Source: Paragyromitra xinjiangensis (Eukaryota; Ascomycota; Pezizomycetes; Pezizales; Discinaceae). Taken from it: 64,000 nucleotides of DNA. Positions 3,160-23,238 of this stretch are shown here, piece after piece. The notes beneath the pieces are model-generated. The model made no database searches. It had not been told where the DNA came from and saw nothing but the letters and a program-made list of their open reading frames with translations. Position 1 is the first letter of the stretch; the number at the start of each line of letters is the position of its first letter. The position numbers were made by a program, and so were the translations under genes. The stretch covers positions 124,001-188,000 of the forward strand of contig JBCAMK010000004.1 of assembly GCA_038503065.1 (NCBI GenBank), read 5' to 3'.

Positions 3160-4712
3160 GGGGGGAATGGGGAAGGGGAAGGGGAAGGGGGAAGAGGGGG
3201 GAGGAGAGAGACTAACCTGGCCTAGTTAATGAGAAGCGTTTTATCCGTTTGGAGTGGCACTGTGAATGGACGTGATTTTGGTGAACCTTAGCGTGGAGCA
3301 GCTACAATCAATGCACTAAGAAATAAAGGGGTGGACAGCGATCTGATTATTTCCTCAACATAGCAGACCCAGCAATTTCCACCAAACTACATTATCTTTT
3401 GACGTATAGCGACGATTCGAGGGGCAGTCTAGCTCGAGACTCGGATTCACGTGGTGCTGGGTGGTTGGTAATGGCGGCTGGAGGATGGGTTCGAGTAGTT
3501 GGCTGGTTTGACTTGAGTGATGTTTGTGGGATCTGGAGGCGTTTCTGGGAGCTGGGGGTGGGGATTGTTGTTTGGGGTTGGCTCTGGAGGTTCGGTTGAA
3601 TTGGGCCTGGGGGTAACTTTGTGGGGGTTGGGTTTGGTTGTGGTTGAGGAGGCGATGTGCGTGGTGATATGTGGGACTGGGTTGGAGGGTGGGTGGTGGT
3701 TGTGGTGAGCTTTGTGGGTGTTGGAGGTATCGACCTATAGGCTTTTGATTGGCGAGTATTTAGGGCGCGGGGCGGTGGGACTTTGGGCTCTTTTGCTGGC
3801 TGAACACAGGCGAAGGCTTAGCGGGTAAGCGAGCTCGATTGAGATCATTGCGCGAGATTATTCCTACAAGGCTTCAAGTGAGAAGTGATCACGATCGCTG
3901 CCACGGAAGGCTTGATATGGAGGGTATAGGGGGAAGAACGGGGAGACAGACAACCCTGCTAATCAGCTAATTGGACGTCTTCCATATGGCTCGCCGGTTA
4001 AAACTTGTAATACGGAATAGTAAGGAACCAACAACCAAGACCACTACAATGAAACGGGTTTGAAACGGGCTAGAGAACGGTAAGCAGAGAGAGCATGGAT
4101 ATGAACAATGACATACTAAATGAGGTGTTACCGCTTTATATGGTCTTTTGCAGCTGCAGCCCAATCCGCCGGTGGTAAGCTTAGTGGTGATGGGTGTAAG
4201 GATTCGGGACGTGGCTGTAGAATGGAGTTATATGCGCGAAAAGAAGCAAATATCTACGGGCTGTTCGAGTAGGTTTACTAATCGGGTATTGACAGTAGAC
4301 CTAGTGGGAGGGCATTGGAAGCCCCGAAGGTTGATTAGGCTTAACTGCAGTAGAGTAGAGCTAATCAAGGAAGTCCTCTACCCTCACATCTTGATTCCTA
4401 TCCTTTCAGCATGGGCTGTTGGAGATACTACTACCGTGACGTAGTATCAGCTTCCTAATACTGGTTTCCCTACGTGCCTCTACTGTCTCAGTTATTTCAT
4501 AAGCTCATGTTTATTTGGCGGGTATGCAGAACTGCTCTGGGAGGCCAGCCAATCATTTGGTGGAGCTCTTTCTATTGGCTAGATACCTGTATATACAGAG
4601 GCTTTCGCCTCTAGCAAACTATCGAGCGATCTCTACAATACACTCGAGATTATTCTTTCATGGGCTAGGTTGGTGTTCGAGTGATGGATGGTGTTGGGGT
4701 TGTGCATGGGGT

Positions 4713-4733
4713 ATCACTCGGGGAGCGAGTGAT
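4713..4733. repeat. Small hairpin, copy 1
   Basis: A perfect 8-bp inverted repeat, ATCACTCG and CGAGTGAT, around a 5-base loop. Related hairpins lie at 5744-5763 and 6990-7010. A CTTCCTAAT string follows about 20 bp downstream. Confidence 0.6.
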
Positions 4734-4802
4734 TCTCTATGTTGGATATTACTTCCTAATATGTACGGACTCCGTGACTTGGTTCGGAGGTCTTGGAGCG
4801 AA

Positions 4803-4838
4803 GCTCGGGCAGAGGCTCGGGCAGAGGCTCGGGCAGAG
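4803..4838. repeat. Tandem repeat, 12 bp x3
   Basis: Three exact consecutive copies of GCTCGGGCAGAG. The repeat lies inside gene-free DNA just after hairpin copy 1. Confidence 0.85.
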
Positions 4839-5743
4839 CACTCGTGGTCGAGCGCTCGGCGGAGCCTCGGGAATGGGAATAGTATGTGGACCTTTGTGGG
4901 TACGAGATCGTGGTATATAGGGGGCAGGCGCAGCCTGCTCTAGCAAGCAATCAATCGAGCTTTTACAACACTCTATGTTGTAAAATATGGGAATCGGGAG
5001 ACAGAGAACTTAATCGCTTAAGGGTGGCTCTAGCACAAGCCTGAATATATAGACTCCTTTCTCTCAGCCGCGCTTGCTAGAACCTTTTAATGTCTGAGCT
5101 CGTCTTCTAGGAGACTGTTTCGCATGAGATTAGGATGCTATCTAACACTCTGTTGGAACTGGAACATGGGTTTTCGCTGCTGGTGTTTTGTTTGTTTGGC
5201 TTGCTCGGTAGGTCGGATGAGCGTTAAAGTGGCGAATCTAGAGGAGGTTGAGGGGAGTCTTGGGGGGTGCTGTAGAGGATATCTGTTGTCGAGTAGTTGT
5301 GTGTTCTTGCCGGAAGTAGGCTTGATCGTACATCGATAGACTCTAGTAGAACCAGGCTTTGGAGTTGTGTAGGGGTTCTAGCACTAGTATGCGCATGCAC
5401 GAGCTATAAATCTAAGTCTGTAGAGTACGACTCTTAATCAAGTCTACCTCCCGATTCTGTTCTGCCGTGCTGTGTCGAAATAATAGGTATGCTAGTCATT
5501 ATCCATCCTTGACCCTGGTGGCGTTTGAGGTGGTCTAGCTTGAGGCTGGATCTGGGCGTCTGGTTAGTACAGCTCGTCTGCTCGTCTGGCATGGTTAATA
5601 GGTCGTGGTTGGTGGTTGGTGGGATCATTGCTTGGGTGTTATTGCTGCTCTGGGAGTTCGTTACTTGGTGGGTGAGGAGCTTGTTTGTGGGTGGGGCTGA
5701 GGGGTTTAGGAGGTAGGCTCTGGTTACGTTATATGCACAGGAT

Positions 5744-5763
5744 GTCACTTGGAGATCGAGTGA
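5744..5763. repeat. Small hairpin, copy 2 (degenerate)
   Basis: TCACTTG pairs imperfectly with CGAGTGA across a short loop. It has the same layout as the hairpins at 4713 and 6990 and is followed by CTTCCTAAT. Confidence 0.45.
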
Positions 5764-6989
5764 TATGTCGTGTTGGAGATAGGCTTCCTAATGTCGGAAA
5801 CGAGAGCGCTTGGTACACGGGTTCTCAGGGGTTACTATACGAGTATAGAGATAGAAATAAGCTGCTGGTTTTCAAAGTAGGTGGGACCGATCCCGTTCCC
5901 ACCTCCTAATAAGTATTTTTAATAGTTTATGCTGGGTCGATGAGGTTCTTAGTCAGGGATCGATACAGTACTCTAGTGGGATATCGTGAGCTCCAATGTC
6001 GTGGGGATTCTCTGGTACTATGTGTGCTGTCTATAAGCTCAAGCCTATAGGGTAAAATTTAATCAAGCCTGCCTCCTGATCCTATTGAGGTTAAATAACA
6101 CGTCAGGTACTCTATGAACTATCAATAACGGGTGATCGCGTACGAAGGTGGAGTTGCCTTCTCTGGTAAGATGGCTCCGGTTTCTCCTCTTTTCTGGCCG
6201 CTTCTCAAGAGAAGGGAATTTGGACACTGTGGGAGCATCCGCTGTAGACAGTTAACACGGCAGTGGGACTTTTAGCCTACAGGCTTGTGGCACAAGCACT
6301 TCCGCAGGCGATATGATCTGCTCTCTCCTTGTAGGTTGCTCTCAACAGTCTGTGCGGTAAAACATACCATGATCTCATTTCATCTATATCCTTGTCGAAG
6401 CTCAACCAAAGCTAGAATAGAACTCCAATAAAGTGTGGCTTTTACTCTTGCGATAGGAAAAAGGCCCTGGACGATGATAAGATGGATTATGATAAGCTCC
6501 ACTGTCTCTCACGAGCCCCTACGGTGTTAGAGAAAATTTCCCGCATATCCTTTCGAGCTACAGGTGGCAGGGGTTTGGGTCTTACCCGATGCCATTTTTT
6601 TCGGCGGGCGTTAACCGTAGTATGAGACTAATATTATAGAACTACTTACTACTCGATTGCCGTCTTTGAAGTCTAGCTATACGGTTTTATTGTAGCGGTA
6701 GATCATGTTCCGTTCCCCGTAAACTCGTTTTTTGGCCTACTATTCACCCTCCCTAATCAGCAGCTATTCGTTCAACTTGATGTTAATCTTTTTGGAATCA
6801 ACCTTCATGTGCGTGCGTGCTCGTGAATGACGGCGGGTTTAATACTGCAGTCTCCCGAGGGTCCCTGTTTTACATCTTCAAGAGTAGACATATAGAAACC
6901 TGAGTACGTGCATACTATTCTCCACTACCGATGTTGGTTTATCGCGTGAAGTACGTTAGCTATCAACGAGCCATATTTAAACATGGAGT

Positions 6990-7010
6990 ATCACTCGGTG
7001 GGCGAGTGAT
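6990..7010. repeat. Small hairpin, copy 3
   Basis: A perfect 8-bp inverted repeat ATCACTCG/CGAGTGAT with a 5-base loop GTGGG. Stem and loop length are identical to the copy at 4713. Confidence 0.6.
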
Positions 7011-7180
7011 GTCTTATGACAATGTTTCCTTGGGGCGTTTTATCATTGAATAGTTTTAGGTGATATCTCCATACTAACAAGCAGCCGGATTATCCAAGAA
7101 TTCTAGGGTTATAGCATCTGTGGTTTGTTATAGTGAGACAGCCTCAATATGGCTGAGCGAAGCGTTCTAGAGTGTACTAA

Positions 7181-7402
7181 CTATGTGCATGATGAAATGT
7201 ACCAAGGGGAGATTTGTGCCGTGTCTACATGTAGTTCTTGATGCATATCCGAGACCCCGAACTTGGCAGAAAAAATCTCAGGAGGGTGGGCGATGGGGAT
7301 ATCATGGAGCGAAGGCTTAATATAAGTAAAAACTGCCCCTCGTAGGGCGCTGTTGGCTAGTGAGTCCTTATCTAGTAAGATTGATGAAAAGAAGGGTTGC
7401 AT
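7181..7402 (-). CDS. Small hypothetical ORF, 73 codons
   Basis: An open frame starting at an ATG in good context (purine at -3). Its codons prefer C in third position, like the 5' parts of the real genes here. No family is recognised and no signal peptide, membrane segment or Cys pattern is seen. It may be a remnant exon of a decayed gene. Confidence 0.25.
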   Translation of the reverse strand: MQPFFSSILLDKDSLANSALRGAVFTYIKPSLHDIPIAHPPEIFSAKFGVSDMHQELHVDTAQISPWYISSCT

Positions 7403-8323
7403 CTTGGTGGAGGCTAGTGGGAGAGGTATGATAATCGATTGAAATGACAGTTGGTTAGCTTATGTCCTCCCCCGTGCTGCTGCCTACCCCGGTACGGGTT
7501 CGCTCAGTCACAACCTCTTAGCTGCTTCACATGCTTGACGCTCTTGATCGACGGAGCCGGAGATTGCACGAGTCATAGACTTAAAAGATACTAAGGAGAA
7601 GGGATTAGGAGATTTGATTAAGTATTTGTTTAGGAGTTATCGCTATAGTCCGTTACTGGAATTACTATCACTTGGGAATATAACGAGGCCCTGCACTATA
7701 GCTATAGAGAATTGCTGCTGGTGTTGAGTATTTGATAAGGCGGAGGCGAAACAAGGGCGAACACTCCTTCTATGAACGGTATTTCGACTAGTAAGAGGAA
7801 ACTCAATATCAATTTGCTATAGGCTAGAAGCGACTGCTGTGTGCACTTGTGTAGATGTTTTTGTCGCTGACAGCCAATCATCCCTTAACCTTCTAAGAGA
7901 CTGCGAAGTAATTCGTGCAAACCACACAAAAAATAACACTACGATCTAGGCCCCTGTAAGAGACCAGATGGATATGAGGCGAAATAAGGATCTGGGCGAT
8001 TTTGGCTCCTCTTGGGTTCACTATTTGCTAAGTCCCAGATAAAATAGTTCATACAATAACTTCAACAGCCCGTAGATTGCTCCCAGCTAATATAGGTAGC
8101 CACTAGAATGAATATGAAAGAAAGGGATGTGGTTTAAATGAGAGATCCAACAAATTCTGTAGAGTCGAAATGCAGCAAAAGAAGCGAATGTGTTAAGGGA
8201 AGTCAAGAAAAACATAAACCGAATCAAACGTAATAAGAAACGAGAAACTTTGAAATTGAAACTTAAGGGAATTAAGAAAGACCGTCGATCAAGAGTAGAT
8301 TTAGAGAAAGTAGAGAAATCTGA

Positions 8324-9016
8324 TCATTGCCCATTTCTCGCGACTAACAGGATTGAGGGAGTTGAAATCGATCGAGTTGAGATGAAACGAGGAATGAATA
8401 CCCACCTAGTCGCAAACAATGAAGGGAACATGAAAGCGAGAAGTAGAGCGACAAAAAGTGCTAATAAGAAAATGATAAGATTTCTGGACAAGTAGTGAGA
8501 ATATGGGAGAACGGGGAAAATAAGATAGCAAAAATAAGATCCCTGAACCTCAGCCGTCTGCTGGTCTATGATATGGCTGGATGGAGAGGGTTTACCAGTA
8601 CCAGGATCCGGATCCACTATATAAGTTTTTTGGTATTTGGTAGGACTTTGCTCTGGCAACGGAATTTTATGGGATATAGCGTGGTGAACTAGTAATTTTA
8701 CTAGGTTATCGTGACAGCAGGTGCGGGCATAATCCAGTGCTGTTTTTCCGTGTTTGTCTATGGCCAAAAAGCTTACGCCACTATCTAGGAGTAACTGTGT
8801 TCCGTCCTCCTCCTTCCCCCGGGTGAGGTTCATACCATCCCACCATGTGCCACCAGAACGAAACCTCTGAGAAACTAGATGTAACACTGTTTGCTCATCA
8901 TTGTTTACAACAGATATATCTGCGCCGTTCTGAAGTAGTAGCGAAGTCAACTCTTTGCAACCGGCTACCGCAGCATTGTATAGTGCTGTTTCTCCGCGCT
9001 TGTCTCGAGCTCGGAG
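8324..9016 (-). pseudogene. Detached C-terminal ankyrin part of the NLR gene
   Basis: A minus-strand coding remnant that begins directly at the outer end of transposon A and has no start of its own. It encodes at least two ankyrin repeats, shown by a T-A-L-Y-N-A-A helix, L-L-L-Q-N-G-A-D-I, and D-K-H-G-K-T-A-L-D-Y. A Pro/Ser-rich linker follows. A hydrophobic run of about 20 residues near codons 160-180 of the 208-codon frame could be a membrane span or an unrecognised intron. Its first codons continue exactly in frame from the last codons of the gene part ending at 17801 once the transposon and one target-site copy are removed. It is the missing 3' end of the NLR, separated by inversion and no longer expressed from that gene's promoter. 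Confidence 0.75.
9011..9016. repeat. Target-site hexamer left of transposon A (TCGGAG)
   Basis: TCGGAG is the reverse complement of CTCCGA, which lies directly left of transposon B at 17796-17801. It does not match the hexamer on A's own right side. The matched pair is therefore split between the two copies. Confidence 0.85.
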
Positions 9017-12000
9017 TACGGGGGCACGTAGCTACCAAAGTCTAATCTGCGGTTTGGCAGCAACCGAACTCTCAGCGCAGCGCAGCAACCACAACTGCGC
9101 GCCCAAGAGATGTATGAAAATAATTTCGCTTTACTAGAGGCTTCAGGAAATAGATTAATTGTACCTAGAGAAATATCTCACATAAAGACTTAATATATTA
9201 TAGGTCATCCTATTCTACCAAAACTTGAGCCTTATTCACTATCAGAATCCCTCTCTGCCCCACTTTCATCAGTTGTTACATCACCTTCTTCTTCCCCATA
9301 AAACTCTGCCTCGACCTCTACAATTGATTGCTGTCTCTTTCTTTTCTTAACACTAGGTTTGTGTTCTTTGGGTTTAGGAAGAAGCGAAAGTACAGGATTT
9401 TGATTTCCTTTACTGACATGCCTTCGCACATGAATTCTCAAAAAGCAATACATAGCAAAATGAGATTTCTGACCATCGGGCATACAATCTTCATAACTAA
9501 TATTAATAGGAAAGCCAGCTTAAACTAGTAAAGCATGACAGTAAGCCATCGTAGTGTCTGGTAGGTATATATTATGATCTTTAACATCAGTAAATTATAT
9601 TTTTTGAGTAAGTGTTAGATACATACCCCATATAACTCTCCAGTATCTATATTTTGCAACTTTTGTGCCTTAATTTCACTAATTCTTTCCAATGACGGTG
9701 GTTGACCATAATTTGATATGTTGTCAGGAGGGAAACTGTAGTTGTAGAATGGTTCACCAGTTGGAAGATTTGGTCAATTGCTTTGCTTCCTGATTTTATG
9801 GTTGTTCCATCTCTCAACAAAGATATGCAATTTTGCTCGTAATAGAGGGAGATATGTGTATAAAAGACTGATAGTATCTTCCATACTATCCTCATGAAAA
9901 AGATTGTCTTGTTGCAGCTTTCGAAAATGCCTCTATATATTTATTAGATAAACTATTTCTTCTAATCGCAGGGTGTGACAATCTTACCTTCCATTCAATT
10001 GTTGCTCCTTTAGTTAACTGCCCCCACCAGCTCTCAATTCTGACATTTCGTGTAGAAGTTCCATACCAGAATACCTCTGGGAAAGTCACATCAGGACTTT
10101 CTACTCTATGAAAGCTCCAAAATGATTCAGCAATCATCATAGTTTCAGTACCTCTATCTGCTCGTATATGAAGAGGTATACAGTTTTGAACTTTCGCTAC
10201 TTCTAAAAACTGACTCAGAACACTGATACCAGTTTTCGCAGATACTCCACAATAAAACCATGTTATGTAGCAAGAATAGGCATCAATGGCTGCATATATC
10301 TCAATTCCAAACATCTGTAGTTTGAGGTGACCATCGATAGACCAACACCAATTGGAGCCAGGACATGTGAACTGTGTATGATGTCGATTAACTCCTTTCC
10401 AACGATTCTCAACTCCCACTGGGTCCACAACTTTTAAGGCTCTTCTGATGCGCTCACTAATTTAAGTTAACATTGATATGTCACGAACCTCTATCGAGAC
10501 CTTCATTCATTTCGATTACATCACGAAAGGAACTAATGGAGGGAGAAACTACATCACGAGGAACTAATGGAGAGAGAAACTACATCATGTATTGTGTCAT
10601 GAAGATCATGACGAGGGGACGCGCAATGTATTACGCAGTTGGATTTCTTATGACATCATGTACTGAGTCATGACTACGCAATAGCTTGCGTAGGCATCAC
10701 ATCATAGCTAATGTACGCGTCAGAGACTACGCAATGGTATTGCGTAGTAGGAGTATAAAAAGTCATGTATCGACCTCTATATAAGAGAGGTCGAGTAGAT
10801 AGTTAGTTTAGTTCTGTACGCAATCTTCTAAGTTATAAATCGAAGCCTCTTCTCAACTATAACAACACTTGTATAATGTCTACACTAAAGACAACGACGA
10901 AGTGAGTTGAAACACGAGTTCGATTGACGCTTGAGTAACACATGTCATGCGAACACTACCGCCATATACTTGGCTCCGAGTCATGTTACCGTCACGAAGG
11001 GCGTGGCCGTTACATGATACTTAAAATCATTAAAATGAAGAACTTACTGTGATGCTAGAATACCCATGTTTCGTAAATGAACCCATACAGCTCGTCTACC
11101 AGATAATGTAATATTTCCTTTTTCTAATTCTGCTTCAATTACTTTTTGAAGCTTCCAATCAGCTTCTTCATTAATATTCTCTGAAGATTGCTGTCTAAAC
11201 ATCCCCATAGATTTCCGAATAAGTACCAAACGACGTTGTTCTATTTGGTATCCATGGCTTTGTAAAATCTTAATGATATTAGCTTTATTCCATCAATAAT
11301 CAATAAGTTAAATCATATTTACCCTTAAAATCTTTGTATCATTTAAACATCTTACCCAAAATAAGTATGCCAACTCTACTCGTAGTGATGGTGTATCCTC
11401 TGATTGCTTATTTTTGGTAAAACCCCATTCTTTCATTCTATTCATTAAAGTAGCACAAGAACACTTCAGTCCCAGCAACTGTAACATATTTAAAGTCTCT
11501 TGGATGGTTTTATTCTCCTCGATATAATGACTGTATATCAAGTATTTGTGCTGATGAATATGTTTGGAAACATGGAATTTTGACATGTTGCGAGGATAGA
11601 TATGATGATAAATCAAGTGATTTTTGATGAGATAAGTAGGTAGTGAGGTGGATAGGTAGTGAGGGTAGATAATGAGGTAACAGATGAGGTAGCAAGGTAC
11701 AAGAAAATAGCAAAGGTGTTGGGAGAAGAATACAAGATACTATGCTGTTATAGTATTTGTTGTTCACTGTTTAGTAGTCAACTGCCGTGGATACCCACTT
11801 GTACCCTATCTTTTTAGTATAAGGACACCTATTGTTGTACTCTAGCTTTACTCTTATCGTGCACATTTATCTACTAGTAATGCATTGGTGTTGGATTATG
11901 CTAGGCATGTAGGGTTTTTAGCTCTATTTCATGCAGTCAAGTTGACTAGCAGCATACAGTGCTGGTGCAATTAGGGGACTGCAGGATGACCAGGCAGATA

Positions 12001-12183
12001 AATAGAACATATGTGGAATTTTTTCATCTATATATAAATAATCTATTCCCTAAGACAGCTAGTAAAGCGAAATTATTTTCATACATCTCTTTATTTGTGG
12101 GCGCGCAGTTGTGGTTGCGCTGTGCTGAGAGCTCGGTTGCTGCCAAATCGCAGATTAGACTTTGGTAGCTACGTGCCCCCGTA
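9017..12183 (-). mobile_element. Transposon copy A, DDE element with 6-bp target duplication
   Basis: A 3167-bp DNA transposon whose ends read TACGGGGGCACG and its complement. Terminal inverted repeats of about 120 bp lie at 9017-9136 and 12060-12183 and are imperfect only at indels and a few bases. It carries a minus-strand transposase remnant. Copy B (3168 bp) is nearly identical and in opposite orientation. TAC...GTA ends, 6-bp duplications and an integrase-type catalytic core fit, from memory, the eukaryotic IS3-like superfamily IS3EU; I could not check this against a repeat library. The flanking hexamers differ (TCGGAG left, CATACG right) because of the inversion described in the findings. 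Confidence 0.88.
9232..11586 (-). pseudogene. Transposase remnant of copy A (HTH plus DDE integrase core)
   Basis: Read on the minus strand, the order is as follows. First comes an N-terminal helix-turn-helix resembling the fungal Clr5 DNA-binding domain (Y-x-E-x-N-K-T-I-Q-E-T-L, then W-G-F-x-K). A second helical segment follows. Then comes the integrase core with W-S-I-D-G-H (first Asp), I-R-A-D-R-G-T-E-T (second Asp) and R-I-E-S-W-W (Glu), with about 40 residues between the last two. The C-terminal part ends in an acidic tail. Several in-frame stops interrupt the frame (as in copy B) and a long intron lies at about 10451-11045. Copy A keeps the N-terminal frame open where copy B has a 1-bp shift. 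It differs by at least one C-to-T change (Arg to Cys, in D-A-Y-S-C-Y). Confidence 0.8.
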
Positions 12184-12189
12184 CATACG
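12184..12189. repeat. Target-site hexamer right of transposon A (CATACG)
   Basis: CATACG is the reverse complement of CGTATG, found directly right of copy B at 20970-20975. Together they form the second split target-site duplication. Confidence 0.85.
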
Positions 12190-13462
12190 TCAGCTGCCGA
12201 GAGAAGCCTATGAGATCAAGACCGGCGGGGGCGGTATCTAATAAAAATCATGCTTTTTTGCATAGCTTCGCCCCTATTTTCGTTTAAGATTCATGTATAA
12301 TGAAGCGGTATGAGAACCTTCAGCTGTAGGGCAATACCAGAATAGGGCGGTTATTTCGGGTAGACTGTCACACAATACTAAATATTGAGTTTTGCGCATA
12401 AAATAATATGTACGTATCCTTCCTTGTGCCAATTCAACTTGTTATGAGGAGAATTTCTTGTAGCTACGTAGCCCTCCACACACAGCGAAGCACACTGAAC
12501 GATACCCTTCTTATAATCGGACTTAAGGTGATGCACGGGGTGGATTTCGTCTTGGCATAAACGGGAGTTTTTTACGGAAATTTCAACGCCTTGTGCTTCT
12601 TGGGGCGATAGAGAAGGTCTACTGCAGCTCTATGACGGGTATAGCGTACCTAAGCCAACAGCCATGATGCTCAGGCCGGAACCAGAGTGTATATTTTGAA
12701 TAGGTCGGCACTAGCTGCGTATGTCTCGGAAACAGGGCTCTATGCATGTACGTGTTTCTATATTGGGATTATTTTTGAGCAGAAATTGTTGTGATGTGCT
12801 TCTGTGTACGTGGTGGTTTACTTAGTTGGCCTGGAGTAAGACGCTAGTGGCGAGCTCGAGGTAATTCTGCGTTCGTGTTGCTCTTGCTTTACAATCATCG
12901 TCAAATTAACTGCAAACGTCCATCTCAGCAGAGATATCAAAGGGTCTGAATTTATGAAGACAGTTACATGTGTTTTTCCTTGTTCTCGGAGAATGGGAGG
13001 CTCGAGAGGTGGCACGAGGTGAGTTCGGGCTCTGCGAATCGGACATGCTACACCAATAAGCACAGCCAGAGCAAAAATAGAAAGAGAACGGATTGCTGCA
13101 GACGATTTTGATTCAAGCTATTAGTTGTCATTCCGGGTGCTAAAGGCGATAATATAACGAGAACTGCTCAAGACTCGTTTCAGCTGGAGCCTTCATTCTC
13201 CTGTTCGATTTTTCGAGGCCCCAGCGGAAAATTTCTCGAAGAACAGCGAATACTCAATCTCCAAACTCTATTTCTCTCAGAATTATTGCCCGCCGGGTAC
13301 GCCGTTGCCTACACTATTCTCGGACCAGACATCGCCGGGTTTCAGCTAAGGGATTTGACGAACGACGAATACTGAAAGCCTCAACTAATTGACCCCCGCA
13401 ATCAAGTACCATCACCACTGAAATTTCAAGTTTTCTACGTACTAGCCAATACTAATTTCAAG
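12190..13462. promoter_or_regulatory. Upstream region of the NLR gene, inside the inverted segment
   Basis: No coding region is recognised. This DNA lies between copy A and the NLR start codon. It presumably holds the NLR promoter and 5' leader. It has been inverted together with the gene, so its original neighbour was the sequence now to the right of copy B. Confidence 0.4.
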
Positions 13463-16094
13463 ATGGTGAAGCAACCAATGGAGGCTTTAGGTGTTGTGTC
13501 TAGCATCATCGCACTCTTGGAACTGTCCAAAAAAACATACGACTTCATTGATAAGGTGGCCCGAGCACCCGAAGAATGTCTGGCGCTTGGACGTGAACTC
13601 AGAGATTTCAGAGAGGTGCTCATCGCTCTGAAGGAATGTGTGGATACGAACCCGCAATCAGAAGTATTGCAGAGGCTCAGTGTTCCCGAAGGGGCTATTA
13701 AACCCCTTACAAAACTTCTGTTAGAGCTGACCGGAGAAGAGGAAAAGCTGGAGAGCTTCTGTCGTTTTAAGTGGCCTTTCAAAAAGGGAGAAATTTCGAG
13801 GTATATCACGGAGATTGAGAGGCATAAGAGCAATTTCACAATCGCTATAACCACTACAAATCTATAAGTCTAGTACGATGTTCGAGAACTTTCATTGTAC
13901 GACGCTAACTTAAGAACGTCATGATCAAGGGCCATCACAAAGTGCACGGAGGATACTGTCCGCAAAATCTATACAACACAGTGCTCCCAGAGGCAAGCAG
14001 GAGATTCCCATCATACCGGTAAGTACGGACACACTATTCTCACCTTGGAGAAGGAAACTAATTAGGCGATATATATTCCCTAGGGACGAAACGTGAGGTG
14101 GTCCTTGACCGGCTGTACCCTGCACGGTTCGACACAAAGCATATAGAAATTCAAAACAAAAGGCAAGAAACTACCGGTGAATGGTTTTTGGAGGCACCAG
14201 AGTTCAAAGGTTGGGAGAAGGAGCAGCCTGATTGTCATCTCCTCTATGGGCATGGAATTCGTATGTACTAATTTATATCGGATGGAGTGGAATAATCACT
14301 GACCTTTTTTCCATTATAGCGGGCACTGGTAAAACGGTCCTAAGGTATGCTACTTGGTATGGGGGTTTGTATTATTACTAAAAATATCTCAAACAGTTCT
14401 CTTGTGGTCGACCATTTCGAAGATCGCGCAAAAACGGAGAATATCGGTGTGGCCTATATATATTTTGACCATGGGGAACAAGATCAGCAGAAGGACGTCC
14501 ATGTACTAGCTTGTCTCATTAAGCAACTGGCCTACCAAATACCCGAGGTGCCCCAAGAAATTGAGAACATCTATACTCGTTTTAATAGCCAACAGAAAAC
14601 GCCTACCTTTAAGGACCTAGAGCCTCCTTTACTTTCCATCGCCAAACGGTTCGCTCGAGTGTTTTTTATCTTGGATGCATTAGACGAATGTCACCCAGAG
14701 TATGGGCGGAAGAAGCTGCTTCCATCATTTAAGAGAATGGCAGCCAACGGAATCAGTCTTTTCTTAACAAGTCGTCCTTACCCCGAAGATATCCAATTAG
14801 CTCTAAGTAGAGCACCCTCTATCAAAATCTTGGCCGCTGAAAAGGATATCGAGACATATATTGCGAAAGAACTTGATGAGAATCCTCGTGCTCAAAATCT
14901 TCTACAAGACAAGAGACTGAAGGACAGAATAATTTCTGTGCTCAAGACTCACGCAAAAGGAATGTGAGTAGCTCTTTTGTCATCTTTCTGAATAATTGTT
15001 CTAACCTTTGATTTGACACAGATTTTTATTCGTCCATTTATTCATCAACTATATTTGCAAAAGAACCTCCGCCGAAAAGGTCTCGAACGATTTGGATGAT
15101 CTCGAAAATGGGTGCAATAAGTCCAGGCTCTTGGAATCTATGTATGAGGAAGCTATGGATCTTGTGCGAGGCCGAGGCGAAGACGATAGGGACTTGGCGG
15201 TCAAAATCTTTTCGTGGCTTACGAAATCTAGGCGGCCCCTTACAGTTGACGAAATTCGGGTAGCAGTTGCTATAAAGCCGGGGAAATATCAGCTTGAAGA
15301 GGCAGCACTACCAGATAAGGCGGTTTTGCTTAGTGTTTGTGCCGGCCTGGTTACAATCGATGATGACACAAATATAATACGGCTTATACACTTTACTGCA
15401 CACGAGTATCTTATGAAGCAGCCCATGATTACGAAGAACGCAGACTTCAATTTAACTATGGCCTGTGTCGCCTACCTTACGTTCGACGCTTTCAGATCTC
15501 CCGTTCACTCGAAAGAATTGTTGAGTGAGCAACGTCTATCATACCCACTTCTGGACTATGCTATCCATCATCACCGCTTTCATTTGAGAAACTGTGACGA
15601 GGACCTAACGGCAGATATGTTTTTCAAATTCGCCACAAGCCCAGGCAATATTACCTCTTTTCAAGAACACGCTCTTATCCCTAGATGCCACCCATCCAGG
15701 CTAACCCCAGAAAGGGATATAAGTGTTGCAGTTTCAGCTAGGTACACCTATCCATTATATATAGCGGTGAGTGCAGGACATGTTGCGGTAGTTCAACGAT
15801 TACTTAAGGACGAAACCGACATCGATATACTGGACTGCAGGGAAACGCCATTGCAGACCGCCTCAATTCACGGCCACAGCCGAAATTTTACTCGAGAATG
15901 GCGCAAACCCCTCCGCAGCTCACAAGCTTGACCTCAAATGGACCCATCGCGTAAACTATGCAAGCACAACTCCACTGCAAATAGCAGCGTACAAAGGGCA
16001 CGAAGAACTAGCTCGAATACTCCTCGAGAACGGTGCGGACGTTTTGGCCCAATCGATCTTAGGTGAAAGTGCGCTACACTTTGCTGCAGCGAGG

Positions 16095-16543
16095 CCAACC
16101 GTCTGGTCCGACTACAGTCGACCGCAGTCGACTGTGGCCAAGCCAGACCGTCTGGACTGCCAAGTATGCAGTCTTTTTTTCCAAGCCAGTCCGTCCAAAA
16201 AATAGACGGACTGCCAAGAAACCTGAATACAGTATTGTTTAAACCCAGCTTCAAGCAAAGAAAAAAACTATATTATAGTAGAGGGGTAGAGGATAGAGGG
16301 TATAGCAAAGCTTGAGTAACAAATCAAGCATTTTTCTACAAAATAGAGACTAGTTTGTTAACCAAGGCCGCCAAGCCTCGTTATAACTTCTACCTCAGTT
16401 GCTCTATTTCCTGAAGCAAAAAAGCGGGTTGTGACTTGAGCCTCCGAAAAAATGATTCAGTCTCTAACTAGTCGACTAGGACCAGACTGCGCCAAGCTAG
16501 TCCAGTCCGTCCTATCCAGTTTTTGGTCGGACCGGACGATTGG
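16095..16543. mobile_element. Palindrome-rich insertion in the NLR ankyrin region (MITE-like)
   Basis: A non-coding insert interrupting the ankyrin frame. Its ends are inverted: CCAACCGTCTGGTCC on the left matches the complement of the right end (CCAATCGTCCGGTCC) at 13 of 15 bases. The interior repeats CCGTC and CAGTCCGTCC strings and holds short palindromes such as CAGTCGACTG. The flanks (16071-16094 and 16546-16568) look like diverged copies of the same ankyrin-coding segment, so a target duplication longer than 10 bp is possible. No protein is encoded and the superfamily is unclear. Confidence 0.6.
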
Positions 16544-17795
16544 TTGCGCTGACTTTGCAGCACGCGGAGGCCATTGGGGAATTATAAATTTACTCCTTGA
16601 TAAAGGGGCTGGCATATCAGCTTTTTATGGCAATCGGTCGACGCCATTGCATATAGCGGCAGATTGTGGGCAGGTAAAAGCGTTTAGGTTGTTGTTAGAG
16701 AGAAACGCTGGTGTCTCACACGCAGATGATTGCGGGTTGACTATACTGTTGGCGATAGCTAGGTCCGGTAGCTGTCAAGATCGCTGTATATGGTTACCGA
16801 TGATAGAACTATTGCTTGAAAGATGGCCTGAGATACTAGCTCAGATAAAAGAAGAGAGTAGGGTGTTGTATTCCGTAGTCATTAGTGAGCGTTGGGAGCT
16901 CTGCCGACTACTGATTAACAAGGGTGCGAAAATTCCGTCTCTATCCACCAGTGGTAATTATGAAAACACAGCACTGCATATTGCGGCTGAACGCGCGCCA
17001 GAGGATATTTGTCGACTTCTACTGGAGAAGGGCTTAGAAATTTCAACCCCGGATAGCGATGGACGAACAGCGCTGCACTCAGTAGCTAGCAGGGGGCATG
17101 AGAATATTTGCCAGTTTCTACTCGAAAATGGTTTGGAGGTTTTTGTTTCAGACGAAGACGGGCAAACGCCACTACATGAGGCAGCATTAGCAGGGGAAGA
17201 TGGGGTATTTAGGCTGTTGCTCGAAAACGGTGCCGACTGTTGGGCCCTTGATAAGCATGGGCAAACACTACTTCATCTCGCAGCAACGGGACCCCACACA
17301 TCACCACGCCCTGTGGCTCCTTGGCGCTACTATACCAGAGAAAATGAGGAGCAGGCGAACCGTAAACAGGCGATAGTCTTGTGGCTGCTTAAAATGGGCC
17401 TCGGCATTGCGGCCCTTGATAAAGAAGGACAAACAGCACTCCATAAGGCGGCAGACGCAGGGTATGAGGGGCTAGTTTGTGTGTTGCTCGAGAATGGCGC
17501 AGACTCTTCAATTGTGGACAAAAGTGGAAAAACTGCGTTGCACGAAGCACTTATCAGCGGGCACACGGCGACAGCGAAATTGTTACTCGAAACAGGCGCC
17601 AATTTAACCCACGACAAGTATGAGGCAATTATCATCGAACACGCTATACGTTCACATAACGCGGACATGGTGAATCTCTTATCTGACAACAACGTGGATT
17701 TTTCGATTGGGTTTGGAGGCAGAAAAACTGCACTCCACCTAGTAGAGCACCCAAAAATTCTTCGGACTTTGCTTAAAAAGGGAGCGGACATCTCT

Positions 17796-17801
17796 CTCCG
17801 A
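17796..17801. repeat. Target-site hexamer left of transposon B (CTCCGA)
   Basis: Pairs with the reverse complement at 9011-9016, left of copy A. It does not pair with CGTATG on B's right side. Confidence 0.85.
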
Positions 17802-18398
17802 TACGGGGGCACGTAGCTACCAAAGTCTAATCTGCGATTTGGCAGCAACCGAGCTCTCAGCACAGCGCAACCACAACTGCGCGCCCACAAATAAAGAGAT
17901 GTATGAAAATAATTTCGCTTTACTAGCTGTCTTAGGGAATAGATTATTTATATATAGATGAAAAAATTCCACATATGTTCTATTTATCTGCCTGGTCATC
18001 CTGCAGTCCCCTAATTGCACCAGCACTGTATGCTGCTAGTCAACTTGACTGCATGAAATAGAGCTAAAAACCCTACATGCCTAGCATAATCCAACACCAA
18101 TGCATTACTAGTAGATAAATGTGCACGATAAGAGTAAAGCTAGAGTACAACAATAGGTGTCCTTATACTAAAAAGATAGGGTACAAGTGGGTATCCACGG
18201 CAGTTGACTACTAAACAGTGAACAACAAATACTATAACAGCATAGTATCTTGTATTCTTCTCCCAACACCTTTGCTATTTTCTTGTACCTTGCTACCTCA
18301 TCTGTTACCTCATTATCTACCCTCACTACCTATCCACCTCACTACCTACTTATCTCATCAAAAATCACTTGATTTATCATCATATCTATCCTCGCAAC

Positions 18399-20754
18399 AT
18401 GTCAAAATTCCATGTTTCCAAACATATTCATCAAAGACAAATACTTGATATACAGTCATTATATCGAGGAGAATAAAACCATCCAAGAGACTTTAAATAT
18501 GTTACAGTTGCTGGGACTGAAGTGTTCTTGTGCTACTTTAATGAATAGAATGAAAGAATGGGGTTTTACCAAAAATAAGCAATCAGAGGATACACCATCA
18601 CTACGAGTAGAGTTGGCATACTTATTTTGGGTAAGATGTTTAAATGATACAAAGATTTTAAGGGTAAATATGATTTAACTTATTGATTATTGATGGAATA
18701 AAGCTAATATCATTAAGATTTTACAAAGCCATGGATACCAAATAGAACAACGTCGTTTGGTACTTATTCGGAAATCTATGGGGATGTTTAGACAGCAATC
18801 TTCAGAGAATATTAATGAAGAAGCTGATTGGAAGCTTCAAAAAGTAATTGAAGCAGAATTAGAAAAAGGAAATATTACATTATCTGGTAGACGAGCTGTA
18901 TGGGTTCATTTACGAAACATGGGTATTCTAGCATCACAGTAAGTTCTTCATTTTAATGATTTTAAGTATCATGTAACGGCCACGCCCTTCGTGACGGTAA
19001 CATGACTCGGAGCCAAGTATATGGCGGTAGTGTTCGCATGACATGTGTTACTCAAGCGTCAATCGAACTCGTGTTTCAACTCACTTCGTCGTTGTCTTTA
19101 GTGTAGACATTATACAAGTGTTGTTATAGTTGAGAAGAGGCTTCGATTTATAACTTAGAAGATTGCGTACAGAACTAAACTAACTATCTACTCGACCTCT
19201 CTTATATAGAGGTCGATACATGACTTTTTATACTCCTACTACGCAATACCATTGCGTAGTCTCTGACGCGTACATTAGCTATGATGTGATGCCTACGCAA
19301 GCTATTGCGTAGTCATGACTCAGTACATGATGTCATAAGAAATCCAACTGCGTAATACATTGCGCGTCCCCTCGTCATGATCTTCATGACACAATACATG
19401 ATGTAGTTTCTCTCTCCATTAGTTCCTCGTGATGTAGTTTCTCCCTCCATTAGTTCCTTTCGTGATGTAATCGAAATGAATGAAGGTCTCGATAGAGGTT
19501 CGTGACATATCAATGTTAACTTAAATTAGTGAGCGCATCAGAAGAGCCTTAAAAGTTGTGGACCCAGTGGGAGTTGAGAATCGTTGGAAAGGAGTTAATC
19601 GACATCATACACAGTTCACATGTCCTGGCTCCAATTGGTGTTGGTCTATCGATGGTCACCTCAAACTACAGATGTTTGGAATTGAGATATATGCAGCCAT
19701 TGATGCCTATTCTCGCTACATAACATGGTTTTATTGTGGAGTATCTGCGAAAACTGGTATCAGTGTTCTGAGTCAGTTTTTAGAAGTAGCGAAAGTTCAA
19801 AACTGTATACCTCTTCATATACGAGCAGATAGAGGTACTGAAACTATGATGATTGCTGAATCATTTTGGAGCTTTCATAGAGTAGAAAGTCCTGATGTGA
19901 CTTTCCCAGAGGTATTCTGGTATGGAACTTCTACACGAAATGTCAGAATTGAGAGCTGGTGGGGGCAGTTAACTAAAGGAGCAACAATTGAATGGAAGGT
20001 AAGATTGTCACACCCTGCGATTAGAAGAAATAGTTTATCTAATAAATATATAGAGGCATTTTCGAAAGCTGCAACAAGACAATCTTTTTCATGAGGATAG
20101 TATGGAAGATACTATCAGTCTTTTATACACATATCTCCCTCTATTACGAGCAAAATTGCATATCTTTGTTGAGAGATGGAACAACCATAAAATCAGGAAG
20201 CAAAGCAATTGACCAAATCTTCCAACTGGTGAACCATTCTACAACTACAGTTTCCCTCCTGACAACATATCAAATTATGGTCAACCACCGTCATTGGAAA
20301 GAATTAGTGAAATTAAGGCACAAAAGTTGCAAAATATAGATACTGGAGAGTTATATGGGGTATGTATCTAACACTTACTCAAAAAATATAATTTACTGAT
20401 GTTAAAGATCATAATATATACCTACCAGACACTACGATGGCTTACTGTCATGCTTTACTAGTTTAAGCTGGCTTTCCTATTAATATTAGTTATGAAGATT
20501 GTATGCCCGATGGTCAGAAATCTCATTTTGCTATGTATTGCTTTTTGAGAATTCATGTGCGAAGGCATGTCAGTAAAGGAAATCAAAATCCTGTACTTTC
20601 GCTTCTTCCTAAACCCAAAGAACACAAACCTAGTGTTAAGAAAAGAAAGAGACAGCAATCAATTGTAGAGGTCGAGGCAGAGTTTTATGGGGAAGAAGAA
20701 GGTGATGTAACAACTGATGAAAGTGGGGCAGAGAGGGATTCTGATAGTGAATAA
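18399..20754 (+). pseudogene. Transposase remnant of copy B
   Basis: Same plan as copy A: Clr5-like helix-turn-helix, second helical part, DDE integrase core (about 19530-19998), C-terminal segment and acidic tail. Inferred introns are 18939-19529 (GTAAGT...TTAG, 591 bp), 19999-20053, and one starting at 20360. Four in-frame stops remain: TAA 18676, TGA 18691, TGA 20210 and TAA 20464. Each can be explained by one C-to-T change from CAA or CGA, and the corresponding stops are present in copy A. Copy B also has a 1-bp frameshift near 18441. The encoded protein is therefore unlikely to be functional as read. Confidence 0.8.
18939..19529 (+). other. 591-bp intron-like segment inside the transposase of copy B
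   Basis: Bounded by GTAAGT and TTAG; removing it joins the reading frames across G-I-L-A-S-H-E-R-I-R-R in one phase. It is about ten times longer than other introns in the window. It holds a 23-bp palindrome at 19238-19260 (ACTACGCAAT arms), another ACGCAA...TTGCGT arrangement near 19295, and two direct copies of GATGTAGTTTCTC near 19400 and 19431. It may contain an older nested element. The same segment is in copy A. Confidence 0.6.
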
Positions 20755-20969
20755 GGCTCAAGTTTTGGTAGAATAGGATGACCTATAATATATTAAGTCT
20801 TTATGTGAGATATTTCTCTAGGTACAATTAATCTATTTCCTGAAGCCTCTAGTAAAGCGAAATTATTTTCATACATCTCTTGGGCGCGCAGTTGTGGTTG
20901 CTGCGCTGCGCTGAGAGTTCGGTTGCTGCCAAACCGCAGATTAGACTTTGGTAGCTACGTGCCCCCGTA

Positions 20970-20975
20970 CGTATG
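20970..20975. repeat. Target-site hexamer right of transposon B (CGTATG)
   Basis: Its matching partner is the reverse complement CATACG at 12184-12189, on the right side of copy A. Confidence 0.85.
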
Positions 20976-23238
20976 GGAACCTGTTAACCTAGCTACCGGC
21001 TCAGACCCTTTGGGGCAATTTAGATTTTTTTTCCATCCTGTACATAAACCGTTCTGAATCTACTCCTCTCAACAGAACCTCATCGATTGTCCCCCTACAG
21101 ATCAATCGCAAAAAAAATGGCAAAGCCGCGAAAATTTCCGTTAAAAGTATAGAAGTCCCAGCTCATGAATTCACAAAATGGTTGATTTCAATAACACGAC
21201 CATAAGCAGAGCGCGAGGTGGTACAAGGGCCAAGTTGCAAATAGACTCCTTTTTTCTACCCCCGATTTCAGAACACAGCTAGTACAGCTCATGTTGGATA
21301 CGGTACTACTTTGAGTTAATCAATTACCCAGCCACAATTGCATTCGAGTGATCTACACATACCAACACTCTATCCCCATCCAAATGTTTTTGTAGTACCA
21401 CTACTGTTGGATCTCAAGGGGGATCCAAAGCATAAGTTCCCAAGAGGTGACAGTCTTCCCTCCTCAAGCAGTTTATCCCCAGAAATAAATGCGGAATAAG
21501 CGAGTGGCTATCGCATTGGGGTTTGATTATTGAATCTTCTCCGGGTATTCGTTTCTGTAATGGAAATGTTATGAACGTTATTCAGGTTTTAGTATATAAT
21601 CCCGTTGCATGACTTGGAAATCTGAGGATGATACCTAAACATTCCCGACTGACGGTTTTGTGCCTTCCCCTATTGTGACACCCGCTTAGCGTCTCTTAAC
21701 TGATATTTCCGTGATTCTGCCATTTTTTCGAGATTGACCTGTAGGAGGATCGATGAGGTTCTAGCGTGAAAACGTTACACGCAGAGGGGGAGGTTGGCAC
21801 CAGTATAAGTATCCAAGAACTAGAACTACCAGAGTCCCTTTGCGTACTACCAAGCACCGGTGCTGTGAGTCATACTAAATGATTTTGTTTCTCCCGGCAC
21901 AAAAGGCTTGCTCCCGTAAACCAGCCAGATCCCTGTACGCGATAAATACGCTGTTTGTTTGTTGCTCAGCTTTGTACCTACAGGGCCTAGATCCCCTTGT
22001 TAACTATCAACATGTACAGCCACCAGAAAATTTTACAGGTTCGGAAGTATCAACTCCCGACCATTGGATTCTACTGCCTTCTCCAGGGCTCCTAGTATCT
22101 GAGCCGAGTTTAATTTAATGTCAGTTCAGCTATGCTGTTATCCGATAAAGGCCTGAGAAGGATTTTCTTATGCGGGTGTCCGAGGGAAATCCTTCACGGG
22201 ATTACCATGGGCGATGACGCAGAGCCATGTGCTCGTTGATTGGTAGCTTGCGAGTGTTACTCCGGAATTTCTCTCCGTCTTGTTATGAGATAGTTGAGAT
22301 AGAGGATGAAGAGTAACTTGCGGGAGAACATAGCAGGGAGTCACGTCACGGGAAGAGGGGTTTCGCTGCTATTATAAGGTTATCCCCTTGGTAAACCACG
22401 TAGCAAAACTTACTTGATATCGACCATAAAAACAAGAAAACAGTGGGGGTAAGGCTTTGTGTTATGGAATCGCTCACAGAAATCAGCAAAAAAAAAGTTG
22501 TTTGGAGGCTTAAGCTTTCCCGCCTCCTATCCTTTACGCCATACTTCTCTCCAGCGACAAGTTCATAATCCCACATGCTGCGGAAAACGAACGCAATACC
22601 ACGTGCATAACTGCACAAGGCCTATAACTAGCACAACACGCGATTCTTTCACAAGAATGAGGAACGCTGCAGGTCTAGGATCAAGAGTACAAGATACAAT
22701 ACCCTTTCTCGGTAATATAATTTATTCCCGAAGCCGCACTTTCCGTAAACCCAAGCAGTCTAGATGCAGGGCGGTCACGTTGGTACACTGGCTATCGGTA
22801 CCCGACATATGTGCAATGGGATCGATAGAGTGGCCGACGATAGCTACCATAATGGGAAGTGCTCATAATATCTTATTGTTGTTGAAATATTAGGGAGGTT
22901 AGAGGAAGTAAACAGATCGATGCATGCTTATTTCAAACCTCGTTCAGTTAGCTCATGTAGTTGATTGTAGTTGACAACGCTTAATCTCAAAACAAAGACC
23001 TTAATTAACTCTAGACTAGTCTACCCAATCCAGTCTAACTTGGCCAAGTTATCCTGCCGTATCTTCAGTTGATAGACCTCTTTAATTTCCACTAGCTCGG
23101 GAGAAACATCTTTTTAAAAAAAAGCTGAGAATATCACTTCAAAAAACCGAAGCCCAGGCCAAAAGCCAAAATCACAATAGATATACACATACTGATACTT
23201 CTACAATCTATACACAAATTCTCGACTGTCCCATTAAC
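20976..23238. other. Intergenic region, no gene recognised
   Basis: I see no convincing gene in this 2.3-kb stretch. Frames are short and without family motifs. Its left edge was the original neighbour of position 12190 before the inversion. Confidence 0.4.

Follow-up and report, generated by a model that had tools for sequence, protein, structure and literature searches.

Two nearly identical IS3EU-like transposon copies, A and B, lie in opposite orientation around a 5618-bp segment in the window, a 64,000-nucleotide stretch of the genome of Paragyromitra xinjiangensis, and their target-site duplications are swapped. This signature is true and well supported. The assembled order is supported as the ancestral order altered by one inversion that ends at both transposon copies, and the inversion leaves an NLR-like gene with ankyrin repeats in two pieces. 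The features of the locus, together with the target duplications of the other family copies, are collected in Table 1.

Table 1. Features of the inverted locus (window coordinates) and target duplications of other copies of the transposon family.
Feature	Position	Strand	Details
3′ part of the gene	8324-9016	-	Ankyrin repeats; hydrophobic stretch close to the C-terminus
TCGGAG, one copy of target duplication 1	9011-9016		Partner CTCCGA at 17796-17801
Transposon copy A, IS3EU-like	9017-12183	-	3167 bp; transposase on minus strand
Left terminal inverted repeat of A	9017-9092		92% pairing with 12108-12183
Transposase catalytic-core ORF of A	9892-10428	-	Counterpart of the B ORF
Nested solo-LTR-like insertion in A	10479-11014		536 bp; TG...CA ends; duplication TGATA (5 bp)
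Right terminal inverted repeat of A	12108-12183
Inverted segment	12184-17801		5618 bp
CATACG, one copy of target duplication 2	12184-12189		Partner CGTATG at 20970-20975
Likely 5′ part of the broken NLR-like gene	13463-17801	+
PigL_N	13463-13867		29.5 bits (cut-off 27.2)
NPHP3_N	14347-14967		72.8 bits (cut-off 24.8)
GPIID_WHD and ankyrin	15092-15931		GPIID_WHD 34 bits (cut-off 27)
Ankyrin repeats	16452-17801	+
CTCCGA, other copy of target duplication 1	17796-17801
Transposon copy B	17802-20969	+	3168 bp; transposase on plus strand; inverted relative to A
Left terminal inverted repeat of B	17802-17877		92% pairing with 20894-20969
Nested solo-LTR-like insertion in B	18972-19507		536 bp; same insertion as in A
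Transposase catalytic-core ORF of B	19558-20094	+	rva_4 (PF24764); D-58-D-40-E
Right terminal inverted repeat of B	20894-20969
CGTATG, other copy of target duplication 2	20970-20975
C21 copy			Target duplication GGTTAG (6 bp)
C2 copy			Target duplication CTGACC (6 bp)
C13 copy			Target duplication AAAGTC (6 bp)
C9 copy			Target duplication GCTATC (6 bp)
C14 copy			Target duplication CCCCGTG (7 bp); its flanking hexamers as such mismatch

Every hexamer bordering A or B has its exact reverse complement beside the opposite copy, and the four match crosswise only. On re-reading, the opposite orientation of the two copies and the coordinates given in a first-pass annotation of this DNA were found to be right, as were the four hexamers. 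When the inverted segment is flipped in silico, A becomes bordered on each side by TCGGAG (CTCCGA on the other strand) and B by CGTATG, so that two perfect 6-bp duplications appear at once. The annotation had judged this very unlikely to be due to chance; computed from the window's own hexamer composition, the probability of both crosswise matches is about 7.5e-8. The inverted segment is single-copy in the genome, except for a 466-bp repeat and short weak matches.

The plus-strand ORFs at 13463-17801 appear to belong to one NLR-like gene; matches to SesA and NACHT in this 5′ part fall under their cut-offs. An ankyrin ORF at 16452-17816 reads into B and meets a stop 15 bases inside the element, and a minus-strand ankyrin ORF at 8324-8950, on the other side of A, lies in a frame that stays open to 9016. 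After the flip, the frame of 16452-17801 passes through one hexamer copy into 9016-8324, in frame and stop-free. At this first breakpoint site the gene frame runs on through the single hexamer copy with no deletion or duplication. The second site lies outside any recognised gene: the ORFs to either side, 13435-13854 and 22459-22893, match nothing in Pfam with E values of 1 or below.

A stretch of 74 residues over the join gives a single Ank_2 match (residues 8-71, 38.4 bits) and a single Ank_5 match (residues 16-71, 29.3 bits, profile positions 1-55 of 56), compared with 29.4 and 22.3 bits for the right piece alone, while neither profile is reported for the left piece alone. The single-repeat Ank profile scores 45.1 bits at the join against 20.1 and 28.2 bits for the pieces, which is no gain because each piece holds about one repeat. 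The evidence for the join therefore consists of the open frame and the correct repeat spacing. As the flip that mends two duplications also mends the gene frame, the uninverted order is taken as ancestral.

The break in the gene falls where A inserted, and through the inversion the 5′ part now points the opposite way. A reversible gene switch was considered and argued against: the transposon lies inside the gene in either orientation, so flipping back alone would not make the gene whole. No intact paralogous locus was found in the genome with the inverted segment as query, which gave short matches elsewhere only (36 of 36 candidates scored), nor with 20976-23200 (short matches only, the one candidate scored) or 3200-9010 (short matches only, 40 of 150 candidates scored). 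The halves of the gene were queried separately for orthologues, and neither search gave a clear one: the N-side half had 6421 matches among 7988 scored candidates, the best 120 being ankyrin-repeat proteins with 22-39% identity, and the C-side half had five weak matches among 542 candidates.

The core ORF of B matches rva_4 at 61.9 bits (cut-off 26) and rve (PF00665) at 20.2 bits, under the cut-off of 32.6; the residues that give the D-58-D-40-E spacing were chosen by eye. Read base by base, both A and B begin with TACGGGGG and finish with CCCCCGTA. C14, C2 and C9 share these termini, as do the two outer ends of C21, and one end of C13 reads CTCCCGTA. The IS3EU superfamily is described, in passages of one account, as having TA..TA termini and target duplications that are usually 6 bp (PMC10045372), and passages on its rust-fungus IS3EU/GingerRoot members give TAYGG..CCRTA ends (PMC12730594). 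Judged by their TAC...GTA ends, long inverted repeats, 6-bp duplications and DDD/E core, A and B fit this superfamily. Termini, inverted repeats, duplication length and the D-58-D-40-E spacing are all points of likeness between the A/B family and IS3EU/GingerRoot; the family differs in having one 7-bp duplication (C14), and its A/B subfamily in holding a nested solo-LTR-like insertion. Among the best 120 of 156 protein relatives, the species named are Tuber magnatum, Morchella conica and Paracoccidioides brasiliensis, all of them fungal.

The nested 536-bp insertion is common to A, B, C14 and C21 and absent in C2, C13 and C9. Its site is interpreted as a short intron within the transposase gene. 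Since four copies have the insertion in common, the element evidently spread after acquiring it.

The assembly was searched for further copies (48.2 Mb in 22 contigs; 40 of 48 candidates scored, which makes the counts lower bounds), and at least seven align with both element ends, including A, B and the insertion-split C21 copy. All five of the other copies in which both ends were checked have matched duplications, four of 6 bp and one of 7 bp; a duplication of about 6 bp is thus usual for the family, and among the seven copies only A and B are mismatched. The C21 copy (C21:137868-143224) is interrupted by an insertion of about 2.2 kb with inverted-repeat ends of its own.

A and B are about 99.9% identical, with four differing aligned columns in two places. 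At position 10272, copy A has an A where B and the five other copies covering the site have G; the second place, 11550-11551, is variable among copies and uninformative. Chimerism of A and B was tried on these differences, and neither of the two places could be scored as a chimeric pattern. Compared with A, the element ends carry no substitutions in C14 (0/624 and 0/588, one indel) or in C21 (0/623 and 0/588, one indel). As independent copies also lack end substitutions relative to A, the identity of A and B at their ends needs no special cause. In the middle of the element (element positions 1155-2579), A differs from B at 3 of 1425 sites with one indel, from C14 at 37 of 1412 with 19 indels, and from C21 at 44 of 1401 with 16 indels. 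Should these middle differences be genuine rather than base-calling errors, A and B would be sister copies, and either a local hop or a one-step origin would be indicated.

The differences of C14 and C21 from A are mostly clusters of small indels and complex changes within 9641-11589 of A; as exceptions, C14 has an indel of 5 bp at 9072 and C21 one of 1 bp at 9518. An example of a complex change is AGC to AAAG, found at several sites and present in B and C13 too. Indels are contained in 29 of the 46 difference clusters that separate A from C14 and in 20 of the 35 that separate A from C21a, the larger of the two C21 pieces and the one used in this count. The corresponding figures are 15 of 131 for C2 and C9 and an intermediate 6 of 23 for C2 and C13, the differences of the last pair being spread over the whole element. 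Clusters touch G or C above chance for A and C14 (45/46, p 0.004) and for A and C21a (34/35, p 0.019); the counts are 118/131 (p 0.0025) for C2 and C9 and 20/23 (p 0.37) for C2 and C13. Since the enrichment is also found between C2 and C9, this comparison does not single out noisy copies. The middle differences look in part like sequencing errors, for which miscalled modified cytosines would be a plausible cause; they may also reflect a real mutational process. Nanopore consensus errors at Dcm sites have been described for a bacterium, in passages of PMC6591954.

On the whole, the probable origin of the inversion is homologous recombination between A and B after a probable local hop. Two copies of a low-copy IS3EU-like element would have ended up 5.6 kb from each other and oppositely oriented, one within the ankyrin part of the NLR-like gene and the other upstream of the gene, with the later of the two presumably arising by a local hop. 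A crossover between the near-identical 3.17-kb copies would then have inverted the 5618 bp between them, swapping the target duplications and leaving the gene as two oppositely facing pieces. A near-identical inverted sequence of 3.17 kb is ample substrate for recombination. If the seven copies were placed independently in 48.2 Mb, the chance that any of their 21 pairs would fall within 5.6 kb is about 0.5%, and for the four copies with the nested insertion it is about 0.14%, orientation being ignored in both. Two unlinked insertions at this distance are therefore unlikely given the low copy number; the likelier courses are recombination after a local hop and a one-step event. We infer the flip by homologous recombination, the local hop and the order of events, as well as the reality of the assembled order.

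The strongest competitor, with perhaps a modest share of the probability, is a one-step transposition that produced the inversion and the swapped duplications at the same time as the second copy. This could have involved a hybrid element, formed when ends from two sister copies at a single site are mobilised as if they were one transposon and insert close by, or a replicative event, in which the element stays where it is while a new copy of it enters a neighbouring site. Such an event predicts a near-identical pair whose duplications are swapped, which is what is observed, and it would account both for the proximity of two copies of so rare an element and for the likeness of A and B in the middle. 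Inversions more commonly arise by recombination between long inverted repeats, however, and mismatched duplications were found in none of the five other copies checked. A and B also differ at two places, which tells against a single step, although both differences could have arisen later or reflect miscalled bases. One-step events were not found reported for IS3EU elements in the passages returned by a narrow search of open-licence literature. Passages of a study on Galileo describe the outcome of hybrid insertion as strikingly like that of ectopic recombination except for chimerism (PMC2775673). As A and B are near-identical, no chimeric pattern is demonstrable between them, and insertion of a hybrid element predicts the same structure. 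The first-pass annotation had taken the swapped duplications as proof of one recombination event between copies already inserted. Its single inversion with ends at the copies stands, carried by the swapped and matched duplications and by the rejoined ankyrin frame; the recombination route is not proven by them, and to call the mechanism so was too strong.

An assembly artefact would be a less likely explanation again. The true order would then be the uninverted one, with the unique segment joined backwards between 3.2-kb inverted repeats, and since these repeats are about 99.9% identical, such a wrong flip would give exactly the observed pattern. The window lies, however, within a 2.69-Mb contig of a 48.2-Mb assembly in 22 contigs, and the large contig and small number of contigs suggest long reads able to span 3.2 kb. 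Comparison of the element loci yielded no resolved repeat of greater length as a yardstick for the assembly.

Replicative intramolecular transposition of the Shapiro type is the mode of Tn3- and Mu-like bacterial elements. That an IS3EU-like element made the inversion in this way in one step is improbable, and if true it would mean a replicative mode in a eukaryotic relative of IS3. Chance similarity of the hexamers with no inversion at all can be set aside as practically negligible, given a probability of about 7e-8 and the in-frame ankyrin join besides.

Inversion by a transposon pair is a known kind of event, to which the A/B locus adds a new case from an IS3EU-like element. In Drosophila buzzatii, Galileo generated the inversions 2j, 2q7 and 2z3, according to passages of PMC2775673. 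Like the A/B locus, 2z3 has two oppositely oriented DNA transposon copies at the inversion ends with exchanged duplications, while other copies of the element are matched; the same passages note that exchanged duplications do not rule out insertion of a hybrid element, and that chimeric copies decided the case. Galileo belongs to the P superfamily, has 7-bp duplications and is represented at 2z3 by chimeric copies, whereas the present inversion spans 5.6 kb, involves near-identical copies of an IS3EU-like element and splits a gene. Styx of Zymoseptoria resembles the A/B elements in being fungal with an IS3EU-related DDD/E transposase, and the title of the paper cites chromosomal rearrangements, although the word ‘inversion’ is absent from its text (PMC10853768). 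Alternative transposition of Ac/Ds in maize is similar in that inversions arise from transposon ends paired unusually, but it concerns a different element family, as passages of PMC8225341 describe.

A narrow search of open-licence literature found no report of an IS3EU inversion, and exact-phrase searches there for exchanged or swapped target duplications returned Drosophila only. The A/B locus offers a clean case, readable in a single genome, of an inversion that is bounded by two DNA transposons and leaves an NLR-like gene in two pieces. It also marks a limit of the swapped-duplication argument: with near-identical copies, recombination and one-step aberrant transposition are inseparable. 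Passages of the IS3EU literature do not describe how these elements transpose, and sister strains at the A/B locus could therefore be informative.

Further repeats occur at the locus. The 466-bp repeat within the inverted segment occupies 16086-16551 in the ankyrin-coding region and recurs at 98-99% identity on contigs C2, C1, C19 and C6; its interpretation as a solo LTR was dropped, as its ends are not TG...CA. Some 100 bp beyond the right border of B begins an inverted repeat pair (21074-21147 and 21693-21762, 78%) that may bound another small element.
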